From Acidiphilium sp. (GTDB lineage Bacteria > Pseudomonadota > Alphaproteobacteria > Acetobacterales > Acetobacteraceae), in the NCBI GenBank assembly GCA_028688765.1, contig JAQTXO010000001.1:20163-84162 (forward strand): a DNA stretch of 64,000 bases, in the 5' to 3' direction. This document shows, piece after piece, positions 34,677 through 61,900 of this stretch. A model generated the notes under the pieces. That model did no database searches, was not told the DNA's origin, and saw only the letters and a program-made list of their open reading frames with translations. Numbering within the stretch: position 1 is the stretch's first letter; each line of letters opens with the position of its first letter. Made by a program: the position numbers and the translations under genes.

Positions 34677-35275
34677 TGCTGATCCATCTACACCAAATCG
34701 ACGGCAGGGCCTTCGTCACCATCGATCCGGAAGGGGAGCCGTTGCCATCGATCGAAACTCTGAGTGGACCGGTTGCGAGTTTCCGGTTGTCCTGGTCCTC
34801 GGAGCGGAGCCGGACGGAACGGGAAGAGGGGGCATGCCGCCCATCGCCGCCTCCAGCGGCCCGGCTGTCAGCGACGTCGGGGACCGCGGCACAGGAGGAT
34901 CCCGCCGGGCATCGGATCGGGCGCTATGCCGCCATGATCGGCGCTTTTGCTGTCATGTTGGTCGTCGGCATGGTGATCGGCACGCTGCGCGGCACAACTC
35001 CGCACGGCGGGGCGATTCCGGCATCGGATCGTTATCATGTGGCCGGCGATCATGCCGTAGCGCGCCGCTCGCCCCCTTACGAGACAAGCGATCCGTGGTC
35101 GCATGAGGGTGCTGGAGACGCCGGAGGGCCGTCCTTTGGCGCGGCTCCTGTCGTCGGATCGGCATCACCGGGCGGCGTGGCCCCGGTCCAGGAGCCGTCG
35201 GCCGGTGTGGCACCCGCCTCGCGTCCGGTGGTGCCACCAGGCGATCCTGCCCGCCTGTTCGGACTGCATTCATGA
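34676..35275 (+). CDS. Single-pass membrane protein between DotM and DotL
   Basis: The ATG at 34676 overlaps the DotM stop (TGATG), and its own stop overlaps the DotL start. The 199-residue product has a soluble N-terminus, one membrane segment (about residues 82-102, IGRYAAMIGAFAVMLVVGMVIGTL) and a Pro/Gly-rich periplasmic tail. IncI plasmids have TrbB (a DsbC-like protein) at this position. This protein is unrelated, while a DsbC-like gene is at base 1, so the order appears rearranged. Function unknown. Confidence 0.6.
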   Translation: MLIHLHQIDGRAFVTIDPEGEPLPSIETLSGPVASFRLSWSSERSRTEREEGACRPSPPPAARLSATSGTAAQEDPAGHRIGRYAAMIGAFAVMLVVGMVIGTLRGTTPHGGAIPASDRYHVAGDHAVARRSPPYETSDPWSHEGAGDAGGPSFGAAPVVGSASPGGVAPVQEPSAGVAPASRPVVPPGDPARLFGLHS

Positions 35276-42218: not shown

Positions 42219-42971
42219 ATGAAAACTGCGAGACCTGCGATGATGGCTATTTCGGTCGTCGTAATTTTTGGGTTGGCAAGGGCATCGGCGCAAAGCCTCG
42301 GTCCGGTCGTCATTCCCTCACCATCCGTTGTGCCTGTGTATCCGGAGCTTGGGACCGGCGTCGTCGTTTCTGTACCGCAACCAATTCCGCCGCCCTATCA
42401 GCCAGGAACAGGATATGGTAATAGTAATGGATCTGGTGGAGGTTCCGCCATGGCTGCTTATACGGCCTCAGGATATTCGATATCTGGCGTCGCTGCGGCC
42501 GAGCAAGTGGGGATCAATCCTCAGGCGATAGCCGGAATCGCCTATGTGGAGAGTCATGATCAAAACATTGGTAACGCTAATGGCTCAACGTCTGCCTTTG
42601 GCGTTTATCAGATTACTCAACCGACATGGCAGTCTACGGTCGCACAATTTGGCTTGCCTTACTCAACGGCGGACATGACAAACCCAACCGACCAAGCCGT
42701 GGTCGCATCATACATTCTCCAGGATTACGCAAACACCGTTTCCCAATATACTCAGGGACCGCCGACGGTTCTACAGACCTATGGAGCCTATATGTTCGGG
42801 CCGGTTCCGGGTGGCGAAATAGCTACCTCCCCGGCTTCCACTCCTCTCTCAAACTTCGTGTCTCCATCAGCTCTTGCCAATAACAACATGTCTGGGTGGA
42901 CAGTCGGAGAGTATCAATCAGTCATGGCGGGTCGCTTGGGCGGCACCGCCAACGATTCTGTCTTCAGCTGA
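42219..42971 (+). CDS. Second lytic transglycosylase (SLT domain)
   Basis: The 250-residue protein has a signal peptide ending near ARASAQS, a Pro/Gly-rich linker (residues 35-80) and an SLT domain. The domain reads AAEQVGINPQAIAGIAYVES, with the catalytic glutamate in VES, then STSAFGVYQITQPTW and a helical remainder. It is more like general or phage-type SLT proteins than the VirB1-like copy at 32905. It may serve transfer-pilus passage or wall remodelling. Confidence 0.75.
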   Translation: MKTARPAMMAISVVVIFGLARASAQSLGPVVIPSPSVVPVYPELGTGVVVSVPQPIPPPYQPGTGYGNSNGSGGGSAMAAYTASGYSISGVAAAEQVGINPQAIAGIAYVESHDQNIGNANGSTSAFGVYQITQPTWQSTVAQFGLPYSTADMTNPTDQAVVASYILQDYANTVSQYTQGPPTVLQTYGAYMFGPVPGGEIATSPASTPLSNFVSPSALANNNMSGWTVGEYQSVMAGRLGGTANDSVFS

Positions 42972-46902: not shown

Positions 46903-47085
46903 ATGGGGAAGGACGGTAGGGACTCATGTCGGATGACCTTCACGCTCTCGAAATCGGACAAGGCCGCGCTGGACCGGATCGCAAGAGAAAACGGCGTTCA
47001 GGTCTCGTGGCTGATCAGGCGCGCGGTGACCAGGTTGATCGAACAAGCCCAGGGCGGCCCTCTGCTGCCCTTCGATCTGAAGTGA
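46903..47085 (+). CDS. CopG/RHH-like small DNA-binding protein
   Basis: The product is about 60 residues long. The core MTFTLSKSDKAALDRIAREN, then GVQVSWLIRRAVTRLIEQ, has the ribbon-helix-helix pattern (strand, helix, S/T-x-x-x-R-x-A-hydrophobic-x-x-hydrophobic-I helix). Possible starts are ATG 46882, 46903 and 46933. Its stop overlaps the start of the cytosine methyltransferase (GTGA), so it may be the methyltransferase's controller. Confidence 0.6.
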   Translation: MGKDGRDSCRMTFTLSKSDKAALDRIARENGVQVSWLIRRAVTRLIEQAQGGPLLPFDLK

Positions 47086-48251
47086 CCGATCGTACGCCGC
47101 CTGCGTCCCGGACATTCTACGAGTTCTTTGCCGGTGGTGGTATGGCCAGAGCCGGCCTGGGCAAGCAGTGGAGTTGTCTGTTCGCCAACGATTTCGATCC
47201 GAAAAAAGTTGAAAGCTACGTCGGAAACTGGGGTTCGACCGCGATGGTTCCGGGAGACGTAGCTTCCATAGAAACCAGCGCGATACCGGGCCATGCGGGT
47301 CTCGCCTGGGCGTCCTTTCCGTGCCAGGATTTATCCTTGGCGGGTGCAGGGGCGGGTCTGGACGGCGATCGCTCCGGCACGTTCTGGGCGTTCTGGGGCC
47401 ATATCCGTCGTATGAAGAAGAGCAACCGAACCCCGAAGATCATCGTTCTTGAAAATGTTTGCGGCGCGTTGACGTCGAACGAGGGGGCCGATTTTCGTGC
47501 GATCGCCGCAGCCATGTCGGGTATCGGGTATCGAATGGGTGCGCTGGTGATCAATGCGTCGCGTTTCGTTCCTCAATCGCGCCCCCGATTGTTCATTATA
47601 GGGGTGGCGAAATCCCATCGTGTTCCCGACGATCTGGTATCCGATGCACCGATCCCCGCATGGCATCCGGCCAGCCTCGTGGACGCCGTGAGCGGTCTAT
47701 CGGGGGCGATCAGAAACACCTGGCTTTGGTGGAATCTACCCGAACCTCCGGCAAGGACGACGATTTTCGCAGACCTGATCGAGGAGAAGCCACGCGGTGT
47801 TTCATGGCATTCTAAAGATGAAACGGATCGACTGCTCTCCATGATGACTCCCAGAAATTTCGCCAAGGTCGAACTTGCGCTTAGTGCAAGGAGGCGGATG
47901 GTTGGAACGATCTATCGAAGGACGCGGGCGGACGGACCGAATGGCAGTCGGGTTCAACGAGCGGAAATTCGCTGCGACGAGATCGCCGGTTGCCTGAGAA
48001 CTCCACTCGGGGGTTCGAGCCGGCAGACGATCATGGTGATCGAAAACGGAATCGTTCGCTCCCGCCTCATATCTCCCCGTGAAACGGCTCGATTGATGGG
48101 CCTGCCCGAATCCTACATCCTGCCCACGAATTACAACGACGCTTATCATCTGACGGGCGACGGTCTGGTCGTTCCCGTCGTAGCATATCTGGCCCGGAAC
48201 CTGATCGAACCACTGGTCGACACCGAGGCCATGATCGCCAGAGCCGCGTGA
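47082..48251 (+). CDS. DNA (cytosine-5) methyltransferase
   Basis: The start is GTG 47082, overlapping the previous stop. The 389-residue protein has C5-methyltransferase motifs: FYEFFAGGGMARAGLG (I, about residues 11-26), ASFPCQDLSLAG (IV, catalytic Cys about 82), IVLENVCG (VI, about 120-127) and FVPQSRPRLFIIG (VIII, about 162-174). The C-terminus has RLMGLPESYILP (IX) and GDGLVVPVVAYLA (X-like, with GD for GN). The downstream DUF4928-like gene is its likely restriction partner. That partner is truncated, leaving this as a de facto orphan. Confidence 0.88.
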   Translation: MTDRTPPASRTFYEFFAGGGMARAGLGKQWSCLFANDFDPKKVESYVGNWGSTAMVPGDVASIETSAIPGHAGLAWASFPCQDLSLAGAGAGLDGDRSGTFWAFWGHIRRMKKSNRTPKIIVLENVCGALTSNEGADFRAIAAAMSGIGYRMGALVINASRFVPQSRPRLFIIGVAKSHRVPDDLVSDAPIPAWHPASLVDAVSGLSGAIRNTWLWWNLPEPPARTTIFADLIEEKPRGVSWHSKDETDRLLSMMTPRNFAKVELALSARRRMVGTIYRRTRADGPNGSRVQRAEIRCDEIAGCLRTPLGGSSRQTIMVIENGIVRSRLISPRETARLMGLPESYILPTNYNDAYHLTGDGLVVPVVAYLARNLIEPLVDTEAMIARAA

Positions 48252-48895
48252 ATACCGAACTTGCCGACTTGCTGAAGGATTTCCGCTCGAAACACGGCTT
48301 TTCGGGAAAGGGACCTCTTTGCGTCGCCATCGTCGTGACGCAGCACGCCAGGAAATCCGGCCTTCCTCTGGATTCGAGCAACTTGTTGACCGAGGGCGGC
48401 GGACAGGTTCTCGGCATGGGAAAGAATGCCGTTCAAGCTGTTCTTTCTCGCCACGGGATCACGAAGATACTGGCGCAGGAAGGCGGCCGGACGAGTCGAG
48501 GCAGCATCGGCAACATGCGCGAATACGTCTCGTTCATCAACGCTCTGAACGAGAAGGGATTGTGCGATCTGGAAGGGATCGAACATTTCTGGATAGACCG
48601 GGTTCACGAATATTTTTCAGCCAAGCCGTTTTCGATCAAACTGGATGCGTCGAAATCGTTACGATCCATCGTCAAGGATCTGGTGAAACAGGCAGAAGAC
48701 CGACAGAAGAAAAATCCGGGGATGCAATATGCGGGTGCAGTACTCCAGCACATCGTGGGAGCTAAATTGAGTTGCGCTATGGGTGCGGACGGGCCATCCC
48801 ACAACAGTTTCTCCACGTCCGCCTCCCAGACGAACCGCGCAGGCGACTTCCTATTTGTAGCGGCTTGCAATGATGATCGTCTGGACGCGCAATAA
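48248..48895 (+). pseudogene. DUF4928-like restriction-partner gene truncated by the transposon
   Basis: The ORF overlaps the methyltransferase (ATGA). Its N-terminal 200 residues look like DUF4928 proteins, which sit beside cytosine methyltransferases and are thought to be the nucleases. The stretch MQYAGAVLQHIVGAKL is typical, as is NRAGDFL. The native sequence stops at 48855, where the transposon's terminal repeat begins; the last 13 or so residues are transposon-encoded. The C-terminal third, expected to carry the remaining fold, is absent. Restriction activity is therefore probably lost. Confidence 0.7.
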
Positions 48896-49010
48896 AGAGG
48901 CGTTTCGCGCTCGGATTAAGTGAGACATTCGCGGTCGGCGGTCACAGGCTCGTTGAGACGCAAATCACAATCCGTGCGACGGACGCGAGATGTTCGGCGA
49001 CCGGCGCAGG
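48856..49010 (+). repeat. Left terminal inverted repeat, 155 bp
   Basis: It begins TGTAGCGGCTTGCAATGATG and is identical, base for base, to the reverse complement of 55561-55715. Inside it an imperfect repeat of about 20 bases occurs at 48921-48941 and 48987-49007 (GAGACATTCGCGGTCGG and GAGATGTTCGGCGACCGG), candidate transposase-binding sites. Confidence 0.95.
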
Positions 49011-49029
49011 GTCGCGGAATTGTGAATGG

Positions 49030-49950
49030 TCAAAGCGCTTCCTCGATGCCGATCACGTTGCTCGCATTTTCAGCGTTCTGGCCCATTTTGAGGCGCAACC
49101 AATGAACGAATGTATCCTTGCGCGGATCGCTTTCCAGTCTTGTCGGGGACAGGGCGACATATTTTGTCCCATCACCAATAAAACCATAGGGTGCCTTGAG
49201 GCGATCGAGGTGTAGATCGCGGGCGACCATGTGGATCGACGCCAACGCGAAGCCCTGATCAGCCTCCGCGGCTTGGATCGCCAGGTAATGGTGCTCGTAA
49301 GAGATATCGTGTTTTGCCTTCAAGGGTATGGAAGTGCGCTTCTTCCAATCGCGCCAGGCCTTTGGTCGTGTCGCTGCATGAAGGAGATCGGGTCTTCCGG
49401 TTACGAGCACATCCTGATTCAGGAACGCGGGCGAGGCGACCGGCCCCATCCTTTCCTCGGCGAGATCTGCAATGAAAAGGGAATGATCGATCAGAAAGTC
49501 GTTGCGCCGAATGGCGAGATCCACGTGATCGCGCGTGAAGTCGATCGGGCCTCCAGCCGCCATATAGCGGATATCCAGACCGGTTTCATGTTTCAGGTCG
49601 GATAAAGAGGGGATCAGCAGCTTCAAGCAAAGCGTCGGTTCACAGGACACGATGAGCGGCCTCGGCCCGGTATGCGCGCGAAAATCCTGGAATGTGCCGT
49701 GGATCTCGAGAAATATTTCGCTGAGTTTGGCGCTCAGCCACTTACCTCTCTCATTGAGGTGAACGCCTCGGTTTCGCCGCTCGAAAAGCGACTCCCCCAA
49801 CTCGGCTTCGAGGGCCTGAACCTGCTTGCTGACGGCACCGTGTGTGACGTTCAGCTCTTCAGCTGCACGCAGCAGGTTCTGATGTCGGGCCGCAACCTCG
49901 AACACGCGTAGGGTGCTGAGCTGCGGTAATCTGCGGGAAGGGACAGACAT
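49030..49950 (-). CDS. LysR-family regulator (GcvA-like) of the cargo operon
   Basis: The start is ATG 49950 (MSVPSRRLPQLSTLRVFEVA); the longer frame runs into the divergent gene. The 306-residue protein has an N-terminal winged HTH (AARHQNLLRAAEELNVTHGAVSKQVQALE, residues about 20-48) and a GcvA-type effector domain (GPRPLIVSCEPTLCLKLLIP, DHVDLAIRRND). It is divergent from the oxygenase gene with 125 bases between, the usual LysR arrangement, so it probably controls the oxygenase-exporter-phosphatase operon in response to an amino acid. Confidence 0.85.
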   Translation of the reverse strand: MSVPSRRLPQLSTLRVFEVAARHQNLLRAAEELNVTHGAVSKQVQALEAELGESLFERRNRGVHLNERGKWLSAKLSEIFLEIHGTFQDFRAHTGPRPLIVSCEPTLCLKLLIPSLSDLKHETGLDIRYMAAGGPIDFTRDHVDLAIRRNDFLIDHSLFIADLAEERMGPVASPAFLNQDVLVTGRPDLLHAATRPKAWRDWKKRTSIPLKAKHDISYEHHYLAIQAAEADQGFALASIHMVARDLHLDRLKAPYGFIGDGTKYVALSPTRLESDPRKDTFVHWLRLKMGQNAENASNVIGIEEAL

Positions 49951-50075
49951 AGATGACCTGTGAGATTTTCTCACAATTTTATGCGGAAAACTCTCGATTT
50001 TCAATGTTGACAGAGACTGCGATTTGACAGCAGCCCGGCCCCTCGAACGGAGGATGCGCCGGCCGAGGAAATACC

Positions 50076-50870
50076 ATGCTTGAAACAGCGGACGTACAAT
50101 CCGGTCTTCGCCGTCTATCGCAGCGTCGAGATGCGATCCATCACACACTTGCCGAGCGCGATTACGTGCTCGTCAGCGGTTACCAAATCATGGAGTTCAT
50201 TCTTCGTGAACCGGGCGTCAATCCCCTGACTATCGACGCATTCGCTCGGAGCTGGGACGGCCTGACGCCTGACGGTTTCATGGCAGACGGCGGCAAATAC
50301 CGGACCCGCCGACATGCCACGATGGTCGGTGATCGGACTGGAGGTGCGGTTCTGGCACAACCCCATCAGCCACATTTTCAGGCGCTCGCTCACAACACGC
50401 TCAACGGCGGTATCGAACGTCATTATGATCCGATCCATCCGGAGATCATCGACGGGCCCGTCATGACGGCACTGTTGCAGTTCGCGACCTCGGCCTTCGG
50501 GGCACTGGCTCCTTTTCATACCTGGCACATCGAGATCCACCAATTCCGCATCACCGCGGTCGAGGGTGGTGGGAAACCTACGCCGGAGGGGACGCACCAT
50601 GACGGCGTGAATTACGTCCTAATGACACTGCTCGATCGTCGCAACGTGTGGGGCGGACTGACATCGATCCACCGGAACGGTCACAAAATTGCGGAGTTCG
50701 CGCTAGAAAAGATGCTGGATACCGCGCTCGTGAACGATGAGCGGGTCGCGCACGGCGTCACCCCGATCGAGGCGGTGCATGCGGACAAGACTGGGTACCG
50801 CGACGTTCTAGTCATCACCTTCCGGCGCAAGTTGGCATCGCAGGATACCGAGCGCTCCGCCTTCTTATGA
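50076..50870 (+). CDS. 2OG-Fe(II) dioxygenase (2OG-Fe_Oxy_2 family), amino-acid hydroxylase candidate
   Basis: The 264-residue protein matches the family of L-isoleucine dioxygenase. It has GGKYRTRRHATMVGDRTG, LPQPHFQ-like spacing, FHTWHIEIHQFRI and the metal site PEGTHHDGVNYVLMTLLDRR (His-x-Asp near residues 173-175). NVWGGLTSIHRNGHK follows, then the distal His in RVAHGVTPIEA (about residue 225) and RDVLVITFRR with the 2OG-binding Arg. Such enzymes hydroxylate free amino acids using 2-oxoglutarate and O2. It overlaps the LysE gene by four bases, pointing to an export-coupled product. Substrate is unknown. Confidence 0.85.
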   Translation: MLETADVQSGLRRLSQRRDAIHHTLAERDYVLVSGYQIMEFILREPGVNPLTIDAFARSWDGLTPDGFMADGGKYRTRRHATMVGDRTGGAVLAQPHQPHFQALAHNTLNGGIERHYDPIHPEIIDGPVMTALLQFATSAFGALAPFHTWHIEIHQFRITAVEGGGKPTPEGTHHDGVNYVLMTLLDRRNVWGGLTSIHRNGHKIAEFALEKMLDTALVNDERVAHGVTPIEAVHADKTGYRDVLVITFRRKLASQDTERSAFL

Positions 50871-51511
50871 GTGGCACGACGGACCAACTCCCCCTTATTT
50901 TCGGGATCACCTTGCTCGCCGTCGTGAGTCCAGGTGCCGACTTCGCCATGATCTCGCGCAACAGCTTCCTGTATGGGCGGCGGGCCGGGATCATGGCGGC
51001 GGTCGGTATCGCCCTATCGTGCTGGTTCCATGTCTTCTATGCGATCTTTGCCTTGGCAGTCGTCCAGCGGCTGTTCCCGAATATACTGGATGTCATCAAG
51101 ATCGCCGGTGCCGGCTACCTGATCTATATCGGCGCGACGACGGCCTTGACGCAACCTAGGGGAGGGGGACCTGATGACGCCTCCGGCGGGCAGACCGACG
51201 CGCGGGCGATCAGGGCCGGCGTACTGACCAATGGGCTGAACCCGAAGACTGCCGTGTTCGTGATCAGCCTCTATACGCAGATCATTGGGCCCGGTCGATC
51301 GGTCGCGTTCCAGCTCAGCTGCGGGCTATTCATCTCGCTGTCACATCTGATCTGGTTTGTCGGCGTCGCATCGTTCCTCTCCCAACCCATGATCCGGCTG
51401 AAGGTTCTAGCCAATCAGCGCATGTTCAACGGGCTGATTGGCTCGGTTCTCGTCCTGCTGGGGGTCGCGCTGGTTCTGTTCGACGTGTCTCAAAGGAGCG
51501 CGATGCCATGA
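50867..51511 (+). CDS. LysE/RhtB-family amino-acid exporter
   Basis: The 214-residue protein has about six membrane segments and family hallmarks. LPLIFGITLLAVVSPGADFA and SRNSFLYGRRAGIMAAVGIA are the conserved PGP-like first loop and Gly-rich segment. AGAGYLIYIGATTA, then GVLTNGLNPKTAVFVISLYT follow. It exports amino acids or derivatives at the inner membrane. Overlaps on both sides (ATGA) couple it to the oxygenase and phosphatase, so it probably exports the hydroxylated product or a toxic analogue. Confidence 0.88.
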   Translation: MSGTTDQLPLIFGITLLAVVSPGADFAMISRNSFLYGRRAGIMAAVGIALSCWFHVFYAIFALAVVQRLFPNILDVIKIAGAGYLIYIGATTALTQPRGGGPDDASGGQTDARAIRAGVLTNGLNPKTAVFVISLYTQIIGPGRSVAFQLSCGLFISLSHLIWFVGVASFLSQPMIRLKVLANQRMFNGLIGSVLVLLGVALVLFDVSQRSAMP

Positions 51512-52212
51512 TGACGACGTCCAGAATATTCTGCGATCTGGAAGGTGTCCTGATCCCGGAGATGTGGCCGCATCTGGCGGAGATTTTCGATATCGAAGAG
51601 CTTTCGATAACGACCCGCGACATTCCTGATTACCGAGGACTTATGCGTAACCGACTACGTCTTCTCCGTGAAAACGGGGTCGGGATCGAAGGCATCTGTC
51701 GTGCGATTGCCGCGCTTAAGCCGTTCGAGGGTGCGATCGATTTTCTCGAGCGGGCAAGATCCTTTGGTCATGTCGTCATCGTCTCGGATTCATTCAGCCC
51801 GATGAACGTGTCCCTGCTAAAGATTTTGGGAGTTGGCGACATCCTTTGTCATCGGTTCATCATCGGCGAAGATGGTATGATCGCCGGTTGTGCCTATTGG
51901 AATGATCTGGCCGGAAAGCATCTATGCCTGACCCGCTACCCGGGTAGAGATAGGCCGACATTCGCCATCGGCGATGCCTTCAACGATCTGTCGATGATCA
52001 GGGCTGCGACATCAGGTGTCCTGTTCAACCCGTCGCCGGCAACATTAAAAGCGGCACCTGATCTCCAGGCAACCAGTAGCTACGACATCGTTGTCACGTT
52101 ACTGGAAGAGACATGCAGGCAGTCGAGTGGCCGCAAGGAAAACGAGCGGTTTTCTCGCGGTCGGGCGATGGGGGGCCAGGCAACCCGAAAACAACAAGAA
52201 AACCCGTTGTGA
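51508..52212 (+). CDS. ThrH-like HAD phosphatase (phosphoserine/phosphohomoserine type)
   Basis: The 234-residue protein matches ThrH. It has IFCDLEGVLIPEMWPHLAEI (HAD motif I, Asp about residue 10), TTRDIPDYRGLMRNRLRLL, then LKPFEGAIDFLERARSFG and VVIVSDSFSPMN (motif II). FAIGDAFNDLSMI is motif IV. ThrH has phosphoserine phosphatase and homoserine transferase activity. The last 30 or so residues (after LLEETCRQ) look non-native: this region carries a cluster of GAAAAC repeats and may be transposon backbone read in frame at the cargo boundary. Confidence 0.82.
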   Translation: MMTTSRIFCDLEGVLIPEMWPHLAEIFDIEELSITTRDIPDYRGLMRNRLRLLRENGVGIEGICRAIAALKPFEGAIDFLERARSFGHVVIVSDSFSPMNVSLLKILGVGDILCHRFIIGEDGMIAGCAYWNDLAGKHLCLTRYPGRDRPTFAIGDAFNDLSMIRAATSGVLFNPSPATLKAAPDLQATSSYDIVVTLLEETCRQSSGRKENERFSRGRAMGGQATRKQQENPL

Positions 52213-52216
52213 AAAC
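52138..52216. promoter_or_regulatory. Candidate resolution (res) site: five GAAAAC boxes
   Basis: GAAAAC occurs at 52138-52143, 52187-52192, 52198-52203 and 52211-52216, and its complement GTTTTC at 52149-52154, all in 79 bases just before the resolvase gene. Clustered, partly inverted short boxes beside a serine resolvase are typical of res sites. The assignment is by position and pattern only. Confidence 0.5.
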
Positions 52217-52264
52217 CAGCGCCATCTTGCACTATGCCAGTTGTCTTTTCTGGCGGGGTTCGCA

Positions 52265-52909
52265 TTGCTCATCGGCTATATCAGGGTATCCAAGTCGGAC
52301 GGCACGCAAACGCTGGAGCCGCAGCGTGACGCACTGTTCGCGGCCGGCATCGATCCGTCCCGCATCTATGAAGATATGGCGTCGGGTCGGCAGGATGCCC
52401 GACCAGGCCTCAGCGCCTGTCTGAAGGCGCTTCAGCCGGGCAACACGCTAGTCATCTGGAAGCTCGACCGGCTTGGTCGCGACCTGCGCCACTTGGTGAC
52501 AACCGCCGAATATCTCCGGTCATGCGGGATCGGGTTGAAGGTGCTTGCGGGTGCCGGCGCGCAGATCGATACGACCTCCGCCAATGGCCGTCTCGCTTTC
52601 GGAATCTTCGCGGCGTTCGCCGAGTTCGAGCGCGAGTTGATCGCCGAGCGCACCCATGCGGGACTTGCCGCAGCGCGAGCGCGTGGTCGCATGGGCGGTC
52701 GGCCGCGCAAGATGGACCGGGCGGCACTGATGATGGCGATGGCGGCGATGTCTGATCGCAATGCCGTCGCGGCCGATGTTGCCACGCGCCTCGGGATCAC
52801 GACCACTACGCTCTATGTCTACGTCAACGGCGACGGCAGCCCCAAAGCTCCGGGGCAGGCGTTGCTCGACGCTATCTCGACCCGACCACTCCACAGCCAG
52901 GCCGCGTAA
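52265..52909 (+). CDS. Serine recombinase (resolvase) of the transposon
   Basis: The conserved protein begins LLIGYIRVSKSDGTQTLEPQ. The TTG at 52265 is the best-placed start, because upstream codons (to 52091) fall in the preceding gene. Catalytic Ser is about residue 9 (YIRVS), with VIWKLDRLGRDLRHLV and GAQIDTTSANGRLAFGIFAA, then FERELIAERTHAGLAAARAR. A C-terminal HTH (ATRLGITTTTLYVYVNG) completes the Tn3/Tn552-type resolvase. It would resolve transposition cointegrates at the nearby GAAAAC boxes. The stop overlaps the transposase start. Confidence 0.88.
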   Translation: MLIGYIRVSKSDGTQTLEPQRDALFAAGIDPSRIYEDMASGRQDARPGLSACLKALQPGNTLVIWKLDRLGRDLRHLVTTAEYLRSCGIGLKVLAGAGAQIDTTSANGRLAFGIFAAFAEFERELIAERTHAGLAAARARGRMGGRPRKMDRAALMMAMAAMSDRNAVAADVATRLGITTTTLYVYVNGDGSPKAPGQALLDAISTRPLHSQAA

Positions 52910-54570
52910 TGAGCGCGGGCATCACGGTCCCCACCGAGGCGATCGTGATGCTCCGGCACCGTTTGGCGGCGCTTCCGTCAAGGCATCCAGAGCGGCAGCC
53001 GCTGATGGCGTCGACGGCCGAACTCTACGGCATCAGCCGAGCCACGCTCTACCGACTGTTGCGCGGCGAGCGGCGTCCGAAGGACGCACACCGCGTCGAT
53101 CGCGGCCTGTCGCGCGTCATGCCTGTCAGCGAAATCGAGTGGTGGTGCGAGATCGTCGCGGCGATGAAGAGCCGCACGACTAACCGGCAGGGCCGTCGCC
53201 TCTCGACCAGGCGCATCCTCGAGATCGTCACCGAACATGGCGTCGAGACTCCCGATCGTGGTCTGGTGAAGCTGCCGCCAGGAAGGTTGGCAGCTTCGAC
53301 GCTCAACCGGCACATGCGACAACTCGGGTACGACGCCGCGCGTATGACACGCGAGCCGGCTGCCGTGCGTTATCAGGCCGAACGCGCCAACATGCTCTGG
53401 CATTTCGACATGAGCCCGTCGGACCTCAAGCAGCTGAAGGCTCCGGCCTGGATCGATCCTGATCGTAATGGCGCACCGACGCTAATGCTGTTCTCGGTGG
53501 TCGATGACCGGTCGGGTGTCGTTTATCAGGAATATGCGCTGGTCTATGGCGAGGATGCCGAGTCCGCACTGCGGTTTCTGTTCCGCGCGATGGCACCGAA
53601 GGAGAATAATCCATTCGGAGGCATCCCGGAAAACATGCAGATCGATAACGGTTCGGCCGGCAAGTCGGCCGTGTTCAAGCGGGTCATGGAATGTCTCGGG
53701 ATTAACGTCTCCTCGCACATGCCCAAAGGCTCGGACGGACGGCGTACGACCGCCCGTGCCAAGGGCAAGGTCGAGCGTCCGTTCCGCACCGTCAAGGAAG
53801 CGCACGAGACGCTCTACCACTTCCACGAGCCAACAAGTGAGGAGGAAGCCAATCGCTGGCTATCTCGCTACATCGCCACCTACAACAACGGCGATCATCG
53901 CCGCGAGCCGCATTCCCGGATCGACGACTGGCTCGGCCATCTGCCTGACGACGGCATCCGCGGCATGTGCAGTTGGGAGCGCTACTGCGCTTTCGCACGT
54001 GAGCCGGAGCGCCGCACGGTCGGCATCGACTGCCGATTGACCGTGGCCGGCGTCACCTATGAGGTCACGCCCGAGGTCGCCGGCGAGACGGTCGTCGTTT
54101 GGTGGGGGCTGTTCGACCAGGAACTATGGGTCGAGCATGGTGAGGAGCGATACGGTCCATTCGATCCGGTCGGAGGGCCGGTGCCGCTTCATCGCTATCG
54201 CAAGCACCGCAAAAGCCGGCGGGAGGTCCGCGCGGATCGGGTCGATGTGCTGGCGACGAGGATCGGGATTCCTCGCTCGGTTCTGGCGGGTGACGACGAC
54301 ATCGTGGTAGTCGGGTGCAAGCCTGCCGATGGAAAAACACCGGTGTCGGCCCGGCTGTTCGCCGATCCTGATCCGTTCGCCGAGCTCACCTTTGCGACCC
54401 CGCTCAAAGCGCGTTTCGCTATTTCCGAAGAACTGCGGCTGCCACTGGGCGGACTCGGCGAGGAAGATCGCGCCTTCATCGATGCGCTGCTCGCGCGCAC
54501 GCTGTCCAGGCCCGAGGTCATGGATGAAATCCGCAGGCGGTTCCCGCCCGGTCATAGACGGAGCGGCTGA
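52909..54570 (+). CDS. DDE transposase (TniA/IstA-like, Rve core)
   Basis: The 553-residue protein has an N-terminal HTH (STAELYGISRATLYRLLRGE) and an Rve-type catalytic core. WHFDMSP (Asp 167), MQIDNGSAGKSAVF (Asp 246) and GKVERPFRTVKEAH (Glu 289) are the DDE triad, with 42 residues between the second Asp and the Glu. A Mu-type beta-barrel region follows (FGPVGGPV-like, VWWGLFDQELWVEHGEERYG). It partners with the AAA ATPase encoded directly downstream (TGATG overlap), as TniA-TniB and MuA-MuB do. Confidence 0.85.
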   Translation: MSAGITVPTEAIVMLRHRLAALPSRHPERQPLMASTAELYGISRATLYRLLRGERRPKDAHRVDRGLSRVMPVSEIEWWCEIVAAMKSRTTNRQGRRLSTRRILEIVTEHGVETPDRGLVKLPPGRLAASTLNRHMRQLGYDAARMTREPAAVRYQAERANMLWHFDMSPSDLKQLKAPAWIDPDRNGAPTLMLFSVVDDRSGVVYQEYALVYGEDAESALRFLFRAMAPKENNPFGGIPENMQIDNGSAGKSAVFKRVMECLGINVSSHMPKGSDGRRTTARAKGKVERPFRTVKEAHETLYHFHEPTSEEEANRWLSRYIATYNNGDHRREPHSRIDDWLGHLPDDGIRGMCSWERYCAFAREPERRTVGIDCRLTVAGVTYEVTPEVAGETVVVWWGLFDQELWVEHGEERYGPFDPVGGPVPLHRYRKHRKSRREVRADRVDVLATRIGIPRSVLAGDDDIVVVGCKPADGKTPVSARLFADPDPFAELTFATPLKARFAISEELRLPLGGLGEEDRAFIDALLARTLSRPEVMDEIRRRFPPGHRRSG

Positions 54571-55541
54571 TGCAGACCGAGGTGATGCGCTATTACGGCT
54601 TGGCCCGGCCTCCGGTCGACCTCGGGTTCTTCGAGACCGAGCATCATGCCCAGCTCACGCATGATCTGAAGACCGCGATCACAGGCGGGCGGCTCATCGC
54701 GCTCACCGCCACCATCGGCTCGGGCAAGACCGTGCTGACGCGGCGACTGCGCGAGGAACTGGAGCGCGAGGGGCGCGTGATCGTCTCCCGCGCGCTGAGC
54801 CTGGAGAAGGCCAAGATATCGGTGCCGCTGCTGGTTGCGGCTTTGTTCTATGACCTGTCGTCCGAGAAGACCGTCTCGATCCCCAGTCAGTCCGAGCGGC
54901 GCGAACGCGATTTGCAGGAGCTGTTCCGCAAGGCAAAACGCCCCGTCGCGCTGTTCGTCGACGATGCGCATGATCTCCACCCCAAGACGTTGACCGCACT
55001 CAAGCGCCTCGTCGAGCTTGTTACCGAGGGCGGCGGTCAACTGGCCGTGATCCTCGTCGGCCACCCGAAATTGCGCAACGATCTCAAGCGCCCGCTAATG
55101 GAAGAAATCGGGGACCGGACGACGGTGTTCGAGTTTGGCGGCCTGCGCGATCGACAGCGCGACTATATCGACTGGGCGCTGCGCACCGCGCTGTCGCCGG
55201 GGATCGAGCCTGATGCTGTGCTGACCGAAGACGGCGCGATCCTGCTCGCCGCCAAGCTCAAGACCCCACTCCAGATCGGCCGTCACATGGTGCGTGCATT
55301 CGAGGCGGGCTTCGAGGCAAGCGTGAAACCAATCGATGCCGCGACCATCGAGGGCGTGCTGTCACGTCAGATCGACGACCTCGAACCCCAGCTCACCCGA
55401 CACGGATACGATACGAAGAGCCTGGCCGACCAGTTCGACGCCAAGCCGGCGGAAATCCGCAAACTTCTCCGGGGCGGGCTCGATCCGGCCCGTGCCCGCG
55501 AACTCACCGACGACATGCGCGCGGCCGGATTGCCGCTCTGA
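54570..55541 (+). CDS. AAA ATPase (TniB/ExeA-like) transposition partner
   Basis: The 323-residue protein has the ExeA/TniB form: MRYYGLARPPVDLGFFET, Walker A LTATIGSGKTVLTRRL (about residues 46-61), Walker B VALFVDDAHDLHPKTL (about 126-141) and AVILVGHPKLR (sensor). A C-terminal helical region includes PLQIGRHMVRAFEAG and a small HTH-like tail (DTKSLADQFDAKPAEIRKLL). It likely selects target DNA and activates the transposase. It ends about 20 bases before the right terminal repeat. Confidence 0.83.
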   Translation: MQTEVMRYYGLARPPVDLGFFETEHHAQLTHDLKTAITGGRLIALTATIGSGKTVLTRRLREELEREGRVIVSRALSLEKAKISVPLLVAALFYDLSSEKTVSIPSQSERRERDLQELFRKAKRPVALFVDDAHDLHPKTLTALKRLVELVTEGGGQLAVILVGHPKLRNDLKRPLMEEIGDRTTVFEFGGLRDRQRDYIDWALRTALSPGIEPDAVLTEDGAILLAAKLKTPLQIGRHMVRAFEAGFEASVKPIDAATIEGVLSRQIDDLEPQLTRHGYDTKSLADQFDAKPAEIRKLLRGGLDPARARELTDDMRAAGLPL

Positions 55542-55560
55542 CCTGCCCTGATTCCGATAT

Positions 55561-55715
55561 CCTGCGCCGGTCGCCGAACATCTCGCGTCCGTCGCACGGA
55601 TTGTGATTTGCGTCTCAACGAGCCTGTGACCGCCGACCGCGAATGTCTCACTTAATCCGAGCGCGAAACGCCTCTTTATTGCGCGTCCAGACGATCATCA
55701 TTGCAAGCCGCTACA
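55561..55715 (-). repeat. Right terminal inverted repeat, 155 bp
   Basis: Exact reverse complement of 48856-49010, ending ...CCGCTACA at 55715. The flanking bases (CGTAA) do not match the left flank. Confidence 0.95.
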
Positions 55716-56150
55716 CGTAACGATCTCGGCCGCGTCTGCGAGATCGGCAGCGTGCACGTGACCGCCCTCTGCGCGCTCGAAACGTTTGCCCGCGCGCATC
55801 ACCTCGTTTCGGTGGTCCGGGGCAGGCTGCGCCCCGGTCTCGGCGCGATCGATCTTCTGCGCGCGAGCTTTCCTGGCGGCTCGATAACCGGCGCGCCCAA
55901 ACATCGGGCGATGCAAATCATCGATGAAATCGAAACCGCCCGGCGCGGCGCCTATTGCGGCACGCTCGCCTGGCTCGGCTTCGACGGCGGAATGGGCAGC
56001 GCGATCATCATCCGCACGATCGTCGCCACCAGCGAGACGCTGTTCGCCCAGGCGGGGGGCGCCATTGTCTGGGACAGCGATCCCGAAGCGGAATATGCGG
56101 AAATGCGACTGAAAGTGGACCCCTTGCTGGCGGCGCACGATGGAGTTTGA
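55716..56150 (+). pseudogene. pabB: 3' fragment of pabB (aminodeoxychorismate synthase component I)
   Basis: The frame open from the transposon end reads GRVCEIGSVHVTALCALETF, VRGRLRPGLGAIDLLRASFP, then GSITGAPKHRAMQIIDEIET and RRGAYCGTLAWLGFDGGM. These are signature motifs of the C-terminal half of chorismate-binding PabB/TrpE enzymes. The N-terminal part is absent to the left, where the transposon lies. PabB makes aminodeoxychorismate for folate synthesis. The fragment has no start of its own, although the ATG at 55914 or later could be used. Confidence 0.85.
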
Positions 56151-56943
56151 TGCGCCGGTCTGGCTGAACGGCGCGCTCGTGCCTGCGAACGCGGCGCGGA
56201 TTGATCCGGCCGATCGCGGTCTGCTGCTCGGCGACGGGCTGTTCGAGACGATCTGTGTTGCCGCGGGCGTGCCGTGCCATGCCGATCGGCATATCGCCCG
56301 GCTGGGCGCTGGCGCTGCTCTGCTGCGTCTCGTCGTGCCCGCCGAAGGCACCCTGTGCGATGCGCTCGATGCGGTCATTGCCGCGCACCAGATGGTCGAT
56401 GGCGTGCTGCGCCTGACGGTTACGCGCGGACCGGGACCGCGCGGCATCATGCCCAGCGGGGAACAGTGCCCGACTGTGATGGTGACGGCCGCGTCCCTGC
56501 CGCACGCTCAAGGTCCGATGCGGGTGGTGATCGCGCGCAGCATCGCCCGCGATGCGGCATCGCCGCTCTGTCGGATCAAATCGCTTAATTATCTCCCGAG
56601 TATCCTCGCTCGGATCGAGGCCGACGAGCGCGGTGCTGTGGATGCGATCCTGCTCAACCATGCGGGCATGGTGACGGAATCCAGTGCCGCCACGGTGTTT
56701 CTGTGCCGAAACGGCGTCTGGCTCACGCCATATGTCGCTGACGGGGCGCTGCCCGGCATTCGCCGCGCGGTGCTTCTCGAAGCCGGGCTCGTGCGCGAGG
56801 CGACCCTGGAGCCGGATTGGCTTTTCGAGGCGGACGCGCTCTGTCTTGGCAATGCGCTCGGCTTGCGCCCGGTCAGCCATGTCGATGGCCGGAAGATCAG
56901 GCAGTATGAAGCGGCAATCGCGGCCCTTGCTGGGCAGCGATAG
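56140..56943 (+). CDS. pabC: Aminodeoxychorismate lyase, PabC
   Basis: The 267-residue protein has PLP fold-type IV features: DRGLLLGDGLFETICV near the N-terminus, VLRLTVTRGPGPRG, the lysine region RIKSLNYLPSILARIEA (about residues 145-161; Schiff-base lysine within) and VTESSAATVFL. It converts aminodeoxychorismate to p-aminobenzoate and pyruvate. It overlaps the pabB remnant by 11 bases, the usual chromosomal pabB-pabC order. This places chromosomal-type DNA at the transposon's right flank. Expression would now depend on a promoter in or near the transposon end. Confidence 0.88.
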   Translation: MEFDAPVWLNGALVPANAARIDPADRGLLLGDGLFETICVAAGVPCHADRHIARLGAGAALLRLVVPAEGTLCDALDAVIAAHQMVDGVLRLTVTRGPGPRGIMPSGEQCPTVMVTAASLPHAQGPMRVVIARSIARDAASPLCRIKSLNYLPSILARIEADERGAVDAILLNHAGMVTESSAATVFLCRNGVWLTPYVADGALPGIRRAVLLEAGLVREATLEPDWLFEADALCLGNALGLRPVSHVDGRKIRQYEAAIAALAGQR

Positions 56944-57181: not shown

Positions 57182-58165
57182 TTATATGGAAAATAGGTGT
57201 TTGTCTATCGACACCAATGCCTGCAAATATGCCTTTTCACTTGCATAGAGCTGGTCCTCTGATCTCTCATAAATCGCATGGTTGTAATGTTCGATTTCGA
57301 GTTCTGTCATATGTCGATTTTGCGTTGGAAATTTATTGTTGTCTTTCGACAAAATCATGGCAAGAAGAGGAGAGAGAGGATAAAAAAGCTCTAGGTCATT
57401 GGTTCCGTGCGGATCAAGCAAATTTATGATCGGCTGATCTCCAGTTATGAATGGCGTCGCGGTTGCGTTCTGCAAAAACACAATTTTATATGCGCGTCTC
57501 TCCCGGAAAAGTCCTACACTGACATTTGTTGCGTAAAGATGGCATTCTACATTTCCCGTCCTGTGAGGGTCGTGGCCGGGTATCGGTCTCGCCACGTCGG
57601 TAATCACTCGTCGCATTCTGGCAGTCCGAAAATATTGATGACATATAAAATAAAGAAAATCTCCGCACCTAGTTTCGTCGTTGTAAAATGAAGCGTCCTG
57701 TCGCCGCAAACATTCGAGAATATCCGCGTTTTTATTCTCGACTCCTGTATGATAATGCTCCCCAAGCGTCTTTTCTGCGATCCGCAATTCTCTTTCTAAG
57801 GCAACCTCCGCCTCCTGTGGTAGATTTGCATATTGTAGCCGCTCACGTAACTCAAAGCTTAGCTGTTTAAGTCGGAGAAAGTCCAGATTCAGATCACGAA
57901 GCCTTTTATCAGAAGCACGATTAATGAACGCTTCTAGGAATGCGATATCCTCTTCAGAGAATTTGTGTATTTCATAGAAGTAGGTTTCGCTCGCAACCGC
58001 TTTTGGTTTCGTAGGGAAAAGCTTTTTATCCCGTTGCCGATAACACCAAAACGATCCGGCCTCAGCCCATGCGTCGAGGTAATGACGCCAAACATAATGC
58101 TGGTTTTTCGTATATGAAACTGTAGGGCCGACGATTTTCACGAAACAGACTTTCAGGTGTGCCAT
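57182..58165 (-). CDS. DUF4238-family protein
   Basis: The 327-residue protein begins after a short leader with YTKNQHYVWRHYLDAWAEAG, the KNQHYVxRxYL signature of DUF4238. It continues with SFWCYRQRDKKLF, FYEIHKFSEEDIAFLEAFIN and, later, FITGDQPIINLLDPHG. Function of the family is unknown, although members are often near defence genes. The DNA is clearly more AT-rich than the rest of the window, a sign of separate acquisition. It is convergent with pabC and apparently monocistronic. Confidence 0.75.
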   Translation of the reverse strand: MAHLKVCFVKIVGPTVSYTKNQHYVWRHYLDAWAEAGSFWCYRQRDKKLFPTKPKAVASETYFYEIHKFSEEDIAFLEAFINRASDKRLRDLNLDFLRLKQLSFELRERLQYANLPQEAEVALERELRIAEKTLGEHYHTGVENKNADILECLRRQDASFYNDETRCGDFLYFICHQYFRTARMRRVITDVARPIPGHDPHRTGNVECHLYATNVSVGLFRERRAYKIVFLQNATATPFITGDQPIINLLDPHGTNDLELFYPLSPLLAMILSKDNNKFPTQNRHMTELEIEHYNHAIYERSEDQLYASEKAYLQALVSIDKHLFSI

Positions 58166-58372
58166 ATCCGTTGGTGAGGAGGCGCTACATGCTGTGCTGG
58201 CTGCGTCCCGTGCAAGTCAAAGACCGTATGCCATCGAAATATGGCAATTTTGATCTGCCTCACAATTCTTGCATTCTGCATTGATGTATTCCGCTAACTT
58301 TTTTTAATCATATTATAATTCATATTATTAAAATACAACTTTATATATTTTAAATTCTTTGAGATTCATTTA
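58166..58372. other. AT-rich gap
   Basis: This gap has no ORF. Bases 58285-58372 are very AT-rich (runs such as TATTATAATTCATATTATTAAAA). It could act as the terminator and promoter region for the flanking minus-strand genes. Nothing else is recognised. Confidence 0.5.
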
Positions 58373-58981
58373 TTATTTCTCTATTAAGAATTTCGGTAAT
58401 GCGAAGTTTTTCTGTTCCAAACAAAATTTTTGTAGATCTTTCCGCAGTATGACGGTCGCCCAATTAGGCGGCTGGCCTTGAGCTATGATGGGATCGGACT
58501 GACCTGGTTGCAGGTGCGGCGTATGGGCATCAAGCTGCTTCGTGCGGATCGCCTGGTACAGAAGTTGATGATACACGTCGGCATTGCCTGGCATAAAAGC
58601 TGGGTTATCTGTTGGCTGTACGCCTGCCATTAGGCACGCGGCATGACCCAAACTATACCTATCGAGGCGAGCCCATAACTCATATTCTGGCCGTTTTAGG
58701 CCAGATATTTCATTTGTTCCTGATATGAAGGCGGGTAGTTTGAAAAGATATAAGACCGCCACGAACACCGGCAGGCTTGCCATCACGGCCAAAGAGGTCG
58801 GCACACCTTGTAAGCGCGCCCATATCCACCCAAGAACGGATATCGACAAAGCCAGAATAGGGCCTTGCCAGCCGATCAAACTGAGCAATTTCCAACATGT
58901 ACTTGCCCATGAAAGCAGCTTTCGCATGGTCTGAAAGAAGTTATTCATGCCTGAAAATATTTCATAAGTGGATGTCGGCAT
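58373..58981 (-). CDS. Membrane protein with cytoplasmic tail, unknown
   Basis: The 202-residue protein has two hydrophobic segments (about residues 29-55, STCWKLLSLIGWQGPILALS and ISVLGWIWARL; and 62-82, TSLAVMASLPVFVAVLYLF). A soluble helical tail of about 110 residues follows (LWARLDRYSLGHAACLMAGV). It overlaps the end of the large restriction-methylation gene by 20 bases in the same orientation, so it is probably co-transcribed with it. No family is recognised. A membrane partner of a defence enzyme is possible but unproven. Confidence 0.55.
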   Translation of the reverse strand: MPTSTYEIFSGMNNFFQTMRKLLSWASTCWKLLSLIGWQGPILALSISVLGWIWARLQGVPTSLAVMASLPVFVAVLYLFKLPAFISGTNEISGLKRPEYELWARLDRYSLGHAACLMAGVQPTDNPAFMPGNADVYHQLLYQAIRTKQLDAHTPHLQPGQSDPIIAQGQPPNWATVILRKDLQKFCLEQKNFALPKFLIEK

Positions 58982-61900
58982 CAGAGTCGCCCGCTGCCAG
59001 TGCGCTCATGTACGCAAGGCAAAGGTCACGGGAACGGTAGCGCCCATAGGCGGCGATCTCCTCACGCTCGACAATCGGAAACGTCGAATAGATATAGCGT
59101 ACATCATCACGTTCGGTGACTTCGTAGAGATAAAAATACACGGCATCGAGCTTGGCCCGAAGTTTCAGCCGCCGGTCTTCATCCCAGATGAACGGCGGCT
59201 TCACCTTACCGGCCTTATCGACATATCCCATATCCACGGCGAACGAGGCCATGTCATGCGCGGCGTAAGTCAATTCCAGCACGGCTTCGCGCACGATCTG
59301 GGCCGCCGTCTTCTTGCCGAAACGGGTTGCCCTGTACCGATCAGGCGGGATGACTGGAAGCTGCTCAACAATATACCAATTTAAGTGCGTGCTTTGTGCC
59401 TTTTGGCGAGCGACGAAATCGAAGACGATTGCTGACAGATTTGCGAGAAGTAGCGGCGCGTTCTCTCGATCGCGGGCCGAACCCTCCGAGATAAGGATTG
59501 GCGCTGTATTCCCAAGACCAACGCGCGGGACCGCGCAAGCAATCATCGTTCTGGCGTCGGTCGCTCGCGCGATGTCGCGAAACGCGATCATCCATTCCAG
59601 CCCTTTCGGAAAATCCACCTCTTTCAGGGGCACCCAATATTGCGGTGTTGGGAGAAAAGCCGGATCAGCCTTCTGCACGTCAGTGATGTCGCCGCTTAGT
59701 GCCGCATTGTGAAGGTTCTCGGCGTTGACTTCGACGGACGCCGCTCGATGATCGAATTGATGGATCATCCGGCCAACATACAGGGGCACCCACTCCCCAT
59801 CCTTGCTCCGAAACCGGTTGCCGCCGATCGGGTAAGCGCCTTCCTTCTCCTCCAGCTCCTGCCGGGTGCGGAACAGCCCGGAGTCGTTGGTCATATCGAA
59901 CATGCGTAGGTATTTCACCGGCCACGCTTTGACCTCCGTGCCAGTCGAGCGATCGACCAGTACGGGCAGGCGGCTATAGATCGCCGTGGTCAGCGCCGCG
60001 TCGCGCCTGGTTCTGAATATCGGCGCGGTGCCGGTGTTCGGATTGACGCTGGCAAAGTCCTGGGCCGACAGCGGAAAACACCGCTCCGGATCGGCAAGCT
60101 CTGATACGTCCTGCAGAAAGAAGGCGCAGCGCGTGTCGGCATGAACCGGCGACGGGCTGCCGACAAATGCGCAGAACTTGAACCGGCTATCCACGTCCGG
60201 GAAAAACGGCTGGGCATCGAACCGCGTTCGCCGGTTCTCGAAATCATACAACGCCTTCAACCGGCCACCGATCGCGACCCCCTTGAAGAACGGTGCTGCG
60301 GTCTTGTCAGACGCGATCCCGGAAGGCGTCAGTAATCCCACCATGCCGGTTGGCTTCACCAGCGTCATCGCCCGTTCGACGAACAGCGAATAGATATTCA
60401 CGTCACCACCCGACAAGAGCGGAAAGTCGCCAGACGTGCGTGCCACCCGCACCGCCGCCTCGGCGCGCTCATTGGCCTTGGCAAAATCCTGGGCCAGCGG
60501 GTCTTGGGCCTTCTCCATTGCCGTGATCATGCGCTGCCGATCCGATGCCCGCTGGGCCAGGGCGATCTCGCGGCGTCGCGCCGCGAACCATTCAACCTGT
60601 TGCAGCTTCATTCGGTCCCAGGGTGGATTGCCGATCACCGCATCAAAGCCACCGACGAGACCATCATTTTCCCAATCGGACCACACACCGGGGAAGGCGA
60701 CCTGCCAGTGCAGGAAACCTTCCTCATCCACAAGGGTGCGCACGCACTCGAAAATCTCCGCGAAGCGCGTGGCTTCGGCGCGACCGTTCGTGATCGGCGT
60801 CTTGCCCATGATGATCGCGATCGGGTCGCCGAACTGCCCCCCGAAGAACGCCTGGATTGCAAGCTTGTCCTCCTTCGATTTCAGATCAATCCAATCGAGC
60901 GCATGAATCAGCGAGAGGATCGCATTGAGCGGCGCGGTCATGTCCCGCACCTCGTCAAAAACATCCTTCGAGCGGTGCGCCTCGGCGATTTCGGCGTCGG
61001 TCAGCCCCTCGATGATCTGCATCGACGTGGCCGCGCGCATCGCGCGGGTGAGCGGCTCATGAAGGAACAAGGGGGCGTTCGAGAGCTTCTGAGCCTTTTC
61101 AGCCCCGGCCTTCACCCAGCACCCGAACAGGCTGTTGCCGCTCCGCAGATGGTGGTCCAGGAACGAAAGCGGCGCGCCAACCGTGAAGGTGTGCAGCCAT
61201 AACGCCACCTTCGCCAGTTCGACGGCCATGACGTTCTTATCGACACCATAGATGCACCGTTTCAGCACCATGCGGCGGACGATATGACGGTCGTCAAGCT
61301 GCTCGTGGTCGATCGTCCAGCCGCGTTCCTCGGCATTCCGCAAAATCGTGGTGCGGATCGCCGCGATCCGGGCGATCAGCGGCGAGACATAATCGCCGAA
61401 CGCCACCAGCGCCTGGGCCTCGGCTATCGCGGTGATGACCTGATCGGCGAGGTAATCGGCCAGGCTCACCAGAAAATGTCCCGAACCCATCGCCGGATCA
61501 CAGATTTTTAGATCGAGCAGTTTTTCGGCCGGGTCGAACCCGGCCAGCGTGCCGATGCGGCGATCCTCGCTCTGCGCGCTGGTCTCCAATTCTGCGGCTT
61601 TCGCGGTAAAGGTCGTCATCCGCGCCTCGACCAGAGGATCGACCGTCTCGCGGATGATTAGCCCAACCAGATCGTCCGGGGTGTAGTAGCTGCCCGATCC
61701 CTTGCGAGCGAAAATATTCGGCCGGACGACGATCTCCGCACCGTCCCGGATGACCTCATGCTCAAGCAGGCGCTCATAGATCGAGCCGAGCTGCTGAACG
61801 CTCAGGTCTCGATAGTTGATGTATTTCCGGCCCTCCGGCGTGTGCTCGAAAGACAGGGCATCGATCACGACGGCCATAACCCCATCGCCCAGACGGGTTT

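Follow-up and report, generated by a model that had tools for sequence, protein, structure and literature searches.

We analysed 64,000 nucleotides of DNA from Acidiphilium sp. (contig JAQTXO010000001.1 of assembly GCA_028688765.1, positions 20,163 to 84,162; this whole stretch is called the window), in which positions 48856-55715 form a transposon. From left to right, it consists of a terminal repeat, four cargo genes encoding a LysR-type regulator, a 2-oxoglutarate (2OG)-Fe(II) dioxygenase, a LysE-type exporter and a ThrH-like phosphatase, then the genes for a resolvase, a transposase and an AAA ATPase, and a second repeat:

48856..49010, plus strand: left terminal inverted repeat, 155 bp, starting with TGTAGCGGCTTGCAATGATGATC; perfect match to the right arm
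49030..49974, minus strand: LysR-type regulator; GTG start at 49974 chosen by eye from the alignment of relatives, alternative ATG at 49950
49960..50000, plus strand: composite site, putative operator/promoter, GTGA-N7-TCAC-N19-TCGATTT; the dyad overlaps the presumed LysR start
50076..50870, plus strand: PF10014 2OG-Fe(II) dioxygenase (205.9 bits, cut-off 23.1)
50867..51511, plus strand: LysE/RhtB-type amino-acid exporter (PF01810, 89.6 bits, cut-off 25.6)
51508..52212, plus strand: ThrH-like HAD phosphatase (NCBIfam NF010109, 223.1 bits, cut-off 133)
52131..52264, no strand: start of the conserved backbone, with the cargo-backbone junction at 52131, and a region with repeated GAAAAC / TTTTC motifs that we read as res-like
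52265..52909, plus strand: serine resolvase (PF00239); start by homology to a Sphingobium copy, frame open from 52091
52909..54570, plus strand: transposase; IS481 nearest in NCBIfam, no Pfam match at E <= 0.001, DDE type by annotation of its relatives
54570..55541, plus strand: AAA ATPase (PF13401), presumed transposition helper
55561..55715, minus strand: right terminal inverted repeat, 155 bp; perfect match to the left arm

The preliminary description of this DNA had placed the cargo between perfect 155-base inverted repeats together with transposition genes, and re-matching the two arms gave exactly the same coordinates. With the imperfect inner part included, the inverted repeats extend to 182 nt at 95%. 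Matches to the repeat in the host assembly (3.45 Mb in 575 contigs, 83% complete) at E <= 0.001 were found in two places only, which are the element's own arms. The overlap of the plus-strand cargo genes by ATGA, also described before, is seen at 50867-50870 and 51508-51511, with the LysR gene divergent.

The oxygenase carries His174, Asp176, His226 and Arg242, which are invariant in a 17-row alignment and would be the iron and 2OG ligands. Its structural model has a mean predicted local distance difference test score (pLDDT) of 77, was built from six sequences and is poor in the loop 97-114. The top 20 fold matches of this model are chains of HrmJ, 3pl0 (MpDO), 8w8h, BelL, IDO and TqaL, at 17-32% identity; HrmJ, BelL and TqaL act on amino acids, and no function is stated for 3pl0 or 8w8h. 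Together, the Pfam family, the fold and the conserved residues support the prediction that the window protein is an active PF10014 dioxygenase. It scores 35.5 bits against the HilB isoleucine dioxygenase model NF042428 and does not reach the cut-off of 350.

For the regulator, the nearest NCBIfam model is GcvA (205 bits, below the cut-off of 288). The two best models for the exporter describe homoserine/threonine and threonine export, the third leucine export, while the model passed by the phosphatase is named phosphoserine phosphatase/homoserine phosphotransferase. Compared with the ThrH of Pseudomonas aeruginosa (PDB 1rku), the window phosphatase reaches 120.8 bits over residues 9-194 (phmmer) and keeps the HAD motifs. 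It differs in lying in an operon with an oxygenase and an exporter and in its tail, which from codon 208 onward is read from transposon backbone DNA.

Recurrence of the four-gene set and its putative regulatory site

Next to the single transposon, we looked at the oxygenase in genome contigs of 84,980 species, using peptide patterns that capture close relatives only, and obtained 21 loci. Five of these (Sphaerotilus, Hydromonas, Polaromonas, an uncultured Burkholderiales and Neisseria sp.) contain the LysR, oxygenase, LysE and ThrH genes in the order of the window, with the ThrH gene split at the Neisseria sp. locus. Over all sampling, the four-gene set is intact at five loci outside the window (L003-L006 and L081) and partial or broken at four more (L017, L078, L080 and L082). 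The preliminary description had proposed looking for the set in other genomes, where it does exist, and for its association with the inverted repeats, which did not hold: the transposon repeat and the transposition genes are absent from all nine outside loci in the 4 to 17 kb of DNA fetched for each. As for its view of the cargo as a mobile amino-acid module, the mobile element stands, and so does the module, in that the four genes recur elsewhere as one unit, in an unchanged order and behind the same putative operator; the proposed chemistry is discussed below.

The set is sparsely distributed. We sampled genomes with a profile of the module oxygenases at a threshold of 1e-62, which may miss divergent members, scoring at most six candidates per genome in the large samples. 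An oxygenase above threshold was found in 4 of 399 genomes of the family of the Burkholderiales locus. These four are the known full set, an oxygenase-LysE-ThrH group whose fetched 9 kb show no LysR match, a LysR-oxygenase-LysE group and a lone oxygenase. The family of the Neisseria locus gave three genomes out of 83: the known locus, one full set and one set with broken genes. For the host's class, 11 of 385 genomes were positive, with the module in the host only and a lone oxygenase in the other ten. Thirteen of 398 genomes were positive in the phylum sample, and none of the seven inspected among the 12 besides the host has the module.

Mobile DNA was covered as well. Relatives of the oxygenase occur in 44 plasmid records, all below 60% identity, and LysE and ThrH genes lie alongside in none of the seven records opened (one of them unannotated at that place). 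Viral contigs gave 130 pattern matches and no oxygenase relative. Two of the plasmids have other arrangements of PF10014 genes. A 6.7-kb Psychrobacter plasmid (L100, 1716-4564) carries AraC, PF10014 oxygenase and drug/metabolite transporter (DMT) genes, that is, a hydroxylase-exporter pair on mobile DNA. For the Agrobacterium vitis plasmid L095, AraC, DMT transporter, argininosuccinate-synthase-like and PF10014 genes are found in a row.

The spacer between the LysR and oxygenase genes contains a conserved site with the general pattern GTGA-N7-TCAC, 18 or 19 bases, and then a TCGNTT-type TCGATTTT or a close form of it. The full pattern is present in the window, L003, L005, L006 and L078, and the half pattern, TCAC-N18/19-TCGATTTT, in L004, L017, L081 and L082. 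Every one of the nine loci with a regulator gene thus has a full or half site upstream of the operon, a count that is a description and not an independent test because eight of the nine had already been aligned when the patterns were drawn up. Across the other fetched loci (117 in all, some places repeated, 1.08 Mb), L047 has the only further half pattern, and there is no full pattern. The host assembly has the full pattern once and the reversed pattern not at all, and 100 shuffles of the window gave no full pattern. We infer that the site is the operator/promoter of a LysR-controlled operon. Judged by eye, the dyad overlaps the presumed first LysR codons in the window, L003, L005 and L006, so that its conservation may be partly coding. 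By the same judgement, the dyad of L078 lies upstream of the presumed LysR start; LysR starts in the Neisseriaceae copies are uncertain.

Transposon backbone, insertion and origin of the cargo

From 52131 to the right end, the 3.6-kb backbone is 87% identical at the DNA level to plasmids of Sphingobium yanoikuyae and Sphingobium sp. AntQ-1. The sphingomonad plasmids pSES189 and AntQ-1 pl2 carry IS481-annotated cargo transposons with the same resolvase-transposase-ATPase backbone and a transposase that is 90% identical, compared with 61% for the transposase of the ISAzs36 record. Against the IS481 model itself (NF033577), the window transposase scores 77 bits and does not reach the cut-off of 224. 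The Sphingobium elements have related long repeats, but these are 75-80% identical to the window repeat, and their cargo by annotation consists of sulfur-handling genes and a peroxiredoxin in place of the amino-acid module. A Lichenihabitans element, its backbone partly deleted, has a cargo annotated as including two oxidoreductase genes and a TetR gene.

The combination of a resolvase, a DDE transposase and an AAA ATPase is also that of Tn402/Tn5053-type transposons (TniABQR). Differences are that the window ATPase matches AAA_22 and AAA_16 and not TniB in Pfam, and that the window repeats are 155 bp long. The element layout has no fourth transposition gene that could be TniQ, with the small remaining open reading frames not profiled for it.

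We compared nine related plasmid loci, which cover seven of the 12 plasmid records containing the repeat. Similarity to the window starts at the same base, 52131, in four of them (L024, L028, L026 and L105), 23 bases after it in L025 and 66 bases after it in L027; the backbones of L102, L103 and L104 are too incomplete or diverged to place the junction. Because similarity begins at a shared point before the res-like region, transposons of this type appear to swap cargo in the segment that runs from the left repeat to the res site. The four-gene cargo is absent from the annotation of all nine loci, some of which are incomplete (record ends, other insertions), and the set on this transposon is therefore a single case so far. 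Likewise, among 2913 plasmid records with some match to the element, none has a match covering 80% of it at one place. The preliminary description had held that the module reading would be refuted if homologous transposons never carried the set as a unit. The outcome is divided, with none of the nine plasmid loci having the set and the set being a unit elsewhere.

At the window copy no target-site duplication is present, the flanking bases being CCTATT and CGTAAC. Two related elements have both ends: the Sphingopyxis copy L102 shows a 6-bp duplication (GATATG) and the Sphingobium copy L024 shows none, and with one case in two the feature is weakly established for this element type. The genes on both sides are truncated:

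46926-48251: C5-cytosine methylase gene, adjoining the DUF4928 gene
48248..48895, plus strand: DUF4928 gene, 3' part lost to the left end of the element (profile 10-201 of 306)
55716..56150, plus strand: pabB 3' remnant (Chorismate_bind profile 123-257 of 257)
56140-56943: aminotransferase class IV (pabC-like) gene, adjoining the pabB remnant

Since the genes on either side are truncated, flanking DNA was probably lost or rearranged after insertion of the window copy. The methylase and DUF4928 genes at 46926-48895 look like a restriction-modification pair deprived of its nuclease, which would be the DUF4928 protein. To the right lies an Eco57I-type restriction-modification methylase gene (1364 aa, 58962-63056). 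A nearby segment with a G+C content of about 46% (57182-58981) holds two genes, including one for DUF4238. With its genes for a TraD/TrwB-type coupling protein and an SLT transglycosylase, at 35272-37623 and 42219-42971, the 84-kb contig looks like a conjugative plasmid or an integrative element. The contig may also be misbinned in the host assembly: the pabB/pabC right flank resembles Azospirillum at about 68%, and no near match to the left flank was found among plasmids.

The host has a second PF10014 gene (L050, contig C555, cut by the contig end) away from the transposon contig, and PF10014 relatives are found in 51 of 59 other genomes of the genus and family. By eye, this resident gene adjoins genes resembling phosphatidylserine decarboxylase and phosphatidylserine synthase. 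On a 63-row tree whose bootstrap had not settled, the resident oxygenase groups with two same-genus genomes (100/97), and the window oxygenase sits on a long branch with four betaproteobacterial module oxygenases (93/87, below the 95 mark). We also searched 299 genomes of the family for the cargo DNA, scoring at most two candidates per genome. Some match was found in 88, and a full-length match in the host only. The non-host matches are pieces of up to 470 bases, mostly in the oxygenase gene, and the same-species genome G1028 has just two short matches of this kind. Since the window oxygenase groups apart from the resident gene and only the host has full-length cargo DNA, the cargo was probably acquired separately from the resident PF10014 gene.

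Proposed function and alternative explanations

Enzymes of PF10014 (formerly DUF2257) hydroxylate free amino acids and yield 4-hydroxyleucine, 4-hydroxyisoleucine and 4-hydroxythreonine, according to the excerpts of PMC3684760 that we used. The excerpted text of PMC7954711 also places threonine hydroxylation within the family, and that of PMC8948231 attributes it to AVI (Agrobacterium vitis) and BPE (Bordetella petrii). On this background, the cargo is more probably than otherwise a LysR-controlled module in which an amino acid is hydroxylated, the product is exported and a phospho-ester is dephosphorylated.

The transposon would have captured this complete regulated metabolic module between its left repeat and the res-like site. 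The regulator would, most likely, sense an amino acid and act on the conserved site to switch the divergent operon. The oxygenase would hydroxylate a free aliphatic amino acid with O2 and 2OG, and the LysE protein would export the hydroxylated product. The ThrH-like phosphatase could strip the phosphate from a phospho-ester made by housekeeping kinases, keeping the product exportable and away from core metabolism. Here we infer the substrate, the direction of transport and the role of the phosphatase in the module. Threonine is a tentative choice of substrate, and its conversion to 4-hydroxythreonine, as made by AVI and BPE (PMC8948231, excerpt), would be the likeliest chemistry; the phospho-ester, a homoserine kinase product, would then be a vitamin B6 precursor. 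As excerpted, PMC7954711 describes 4-hydroxythreonine as toxic and reports that the homoserine kinase ThrB turns it into a phosphate used for vitamin B6.

Several results weigh against this reading. The exporter scores 117 bits against the homoserine/threonine efflux model TIGR00949, short of its cut-off of 183.95, and the phosphatase scores 137.5 bits against TIGR02137, a second equivalog, with a cut-off of 223.4. ThrH is not strictly required, because L078 lacks it. The Neisseriaceae loci L017 and L082 are decaying copies, with ThrH split in both and the oxygenase broken in one. The module oxygenases are not one clade: the Neisseriaceae rows and L078/L080 lie elsewhere on the tree, and because three changes are needed and the bootstrap is unsettled, a single origin of the module is not shown. 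Finally, there are the descriptive nature of the nine-of-nine count and the overlap of the dyad with LysR codons.

Among the alternatives, detoxification has some appeal and is rather unlikely in our estimate. Here LysR would sense a toxic environmental amino-acid analogue, possibly imported and phosphorylated, which the phosphatase, oxygenase and exporter would remove, the benefit being resistance. Resistance is a common benefit among transposon cargoes, the sulfur-handling and peroxiredoxin genes annotated in the Sphingobium cargo of this transposon type look protective, and both the patchy distribution and the broken Neisseriaceae copies fit a conditional benefit; relatives of known function, however, make hydroxy amino acids from ordinary ones. 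The phosphatase could also chiefly supply phosphoserine phosphatase to a host without SerB, the other genes travelling along, and indeed no SerB match above the cut-off was found in the host assembly. Yet that assembly is 83% complete, SerB is above the cut-off in 10 of 11 other genomes of the genus (the eleventh has it as two pieces at contig ends), and five other loci hold all four genes together, which makes this explanation very improbable. We give hardly any credence to a chance assembly of unrelated genes trapped jointly by the transposon: a single copy of the set was found on this transposon type, but the same four genes, order and putative operator occur at independent loci whose fetched DNA lacks the repeats.

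A bolder form of the hydroxylation module is unlikely, and we mention it as speculation. The cargo would be a transposable antimetabolite unit that moves between bacterial classes, pumping toxic 4-hydroxythreonine made from threonine at competitors while the phosphatase guards the producer's own B6 and threonine metabolism. If true, this would be an amino-acid weapon with built-in immunity. For free amino-acid hydroxylation by the PF10014 family, two hypotheses on its physiological role have been put forward (PMC3684760, excerpt).

The element is not categorically new, as there are known operons that pair a hydroxylase with an exporter, and known cargo transposons of this kind. The L-isoleucine dioxygenase (IDO) operon of Bacillus thuringiensis and the Hil operon of Pantoea/Pseudomonas also combine a PF10014 oxygenase acting on free amino acids with an exporter, and the Hil operon also has a LysR regulator (PMC3684760, excerpt). 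In the same excerpted account, their exporter is RhtA or a major facilitator superfamily (MFS) protein where the window has LysE, and neither a phosphatase nor a transposon is mentioned. None of the element's seven genes corresponds to their reductase (AR/HilC), HilA or HilP. Our searches of the open-licence PMC literature found no description of a ThrH partner, of the conserved site or of the entire unit carried by a transposon.

As a minimal self-contained unit, the cargo suggests which partners such an enzyme needs, namely an exporter and a ThrH-type phosphatase. With its own regulator and putative operator, the 3.1-kb unit would lend itself both to screening for inducers and to assaying the pathway. 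More generally, it shows amino-acid chemistry of an ordinary-looking kind travelling as accessory cargo.

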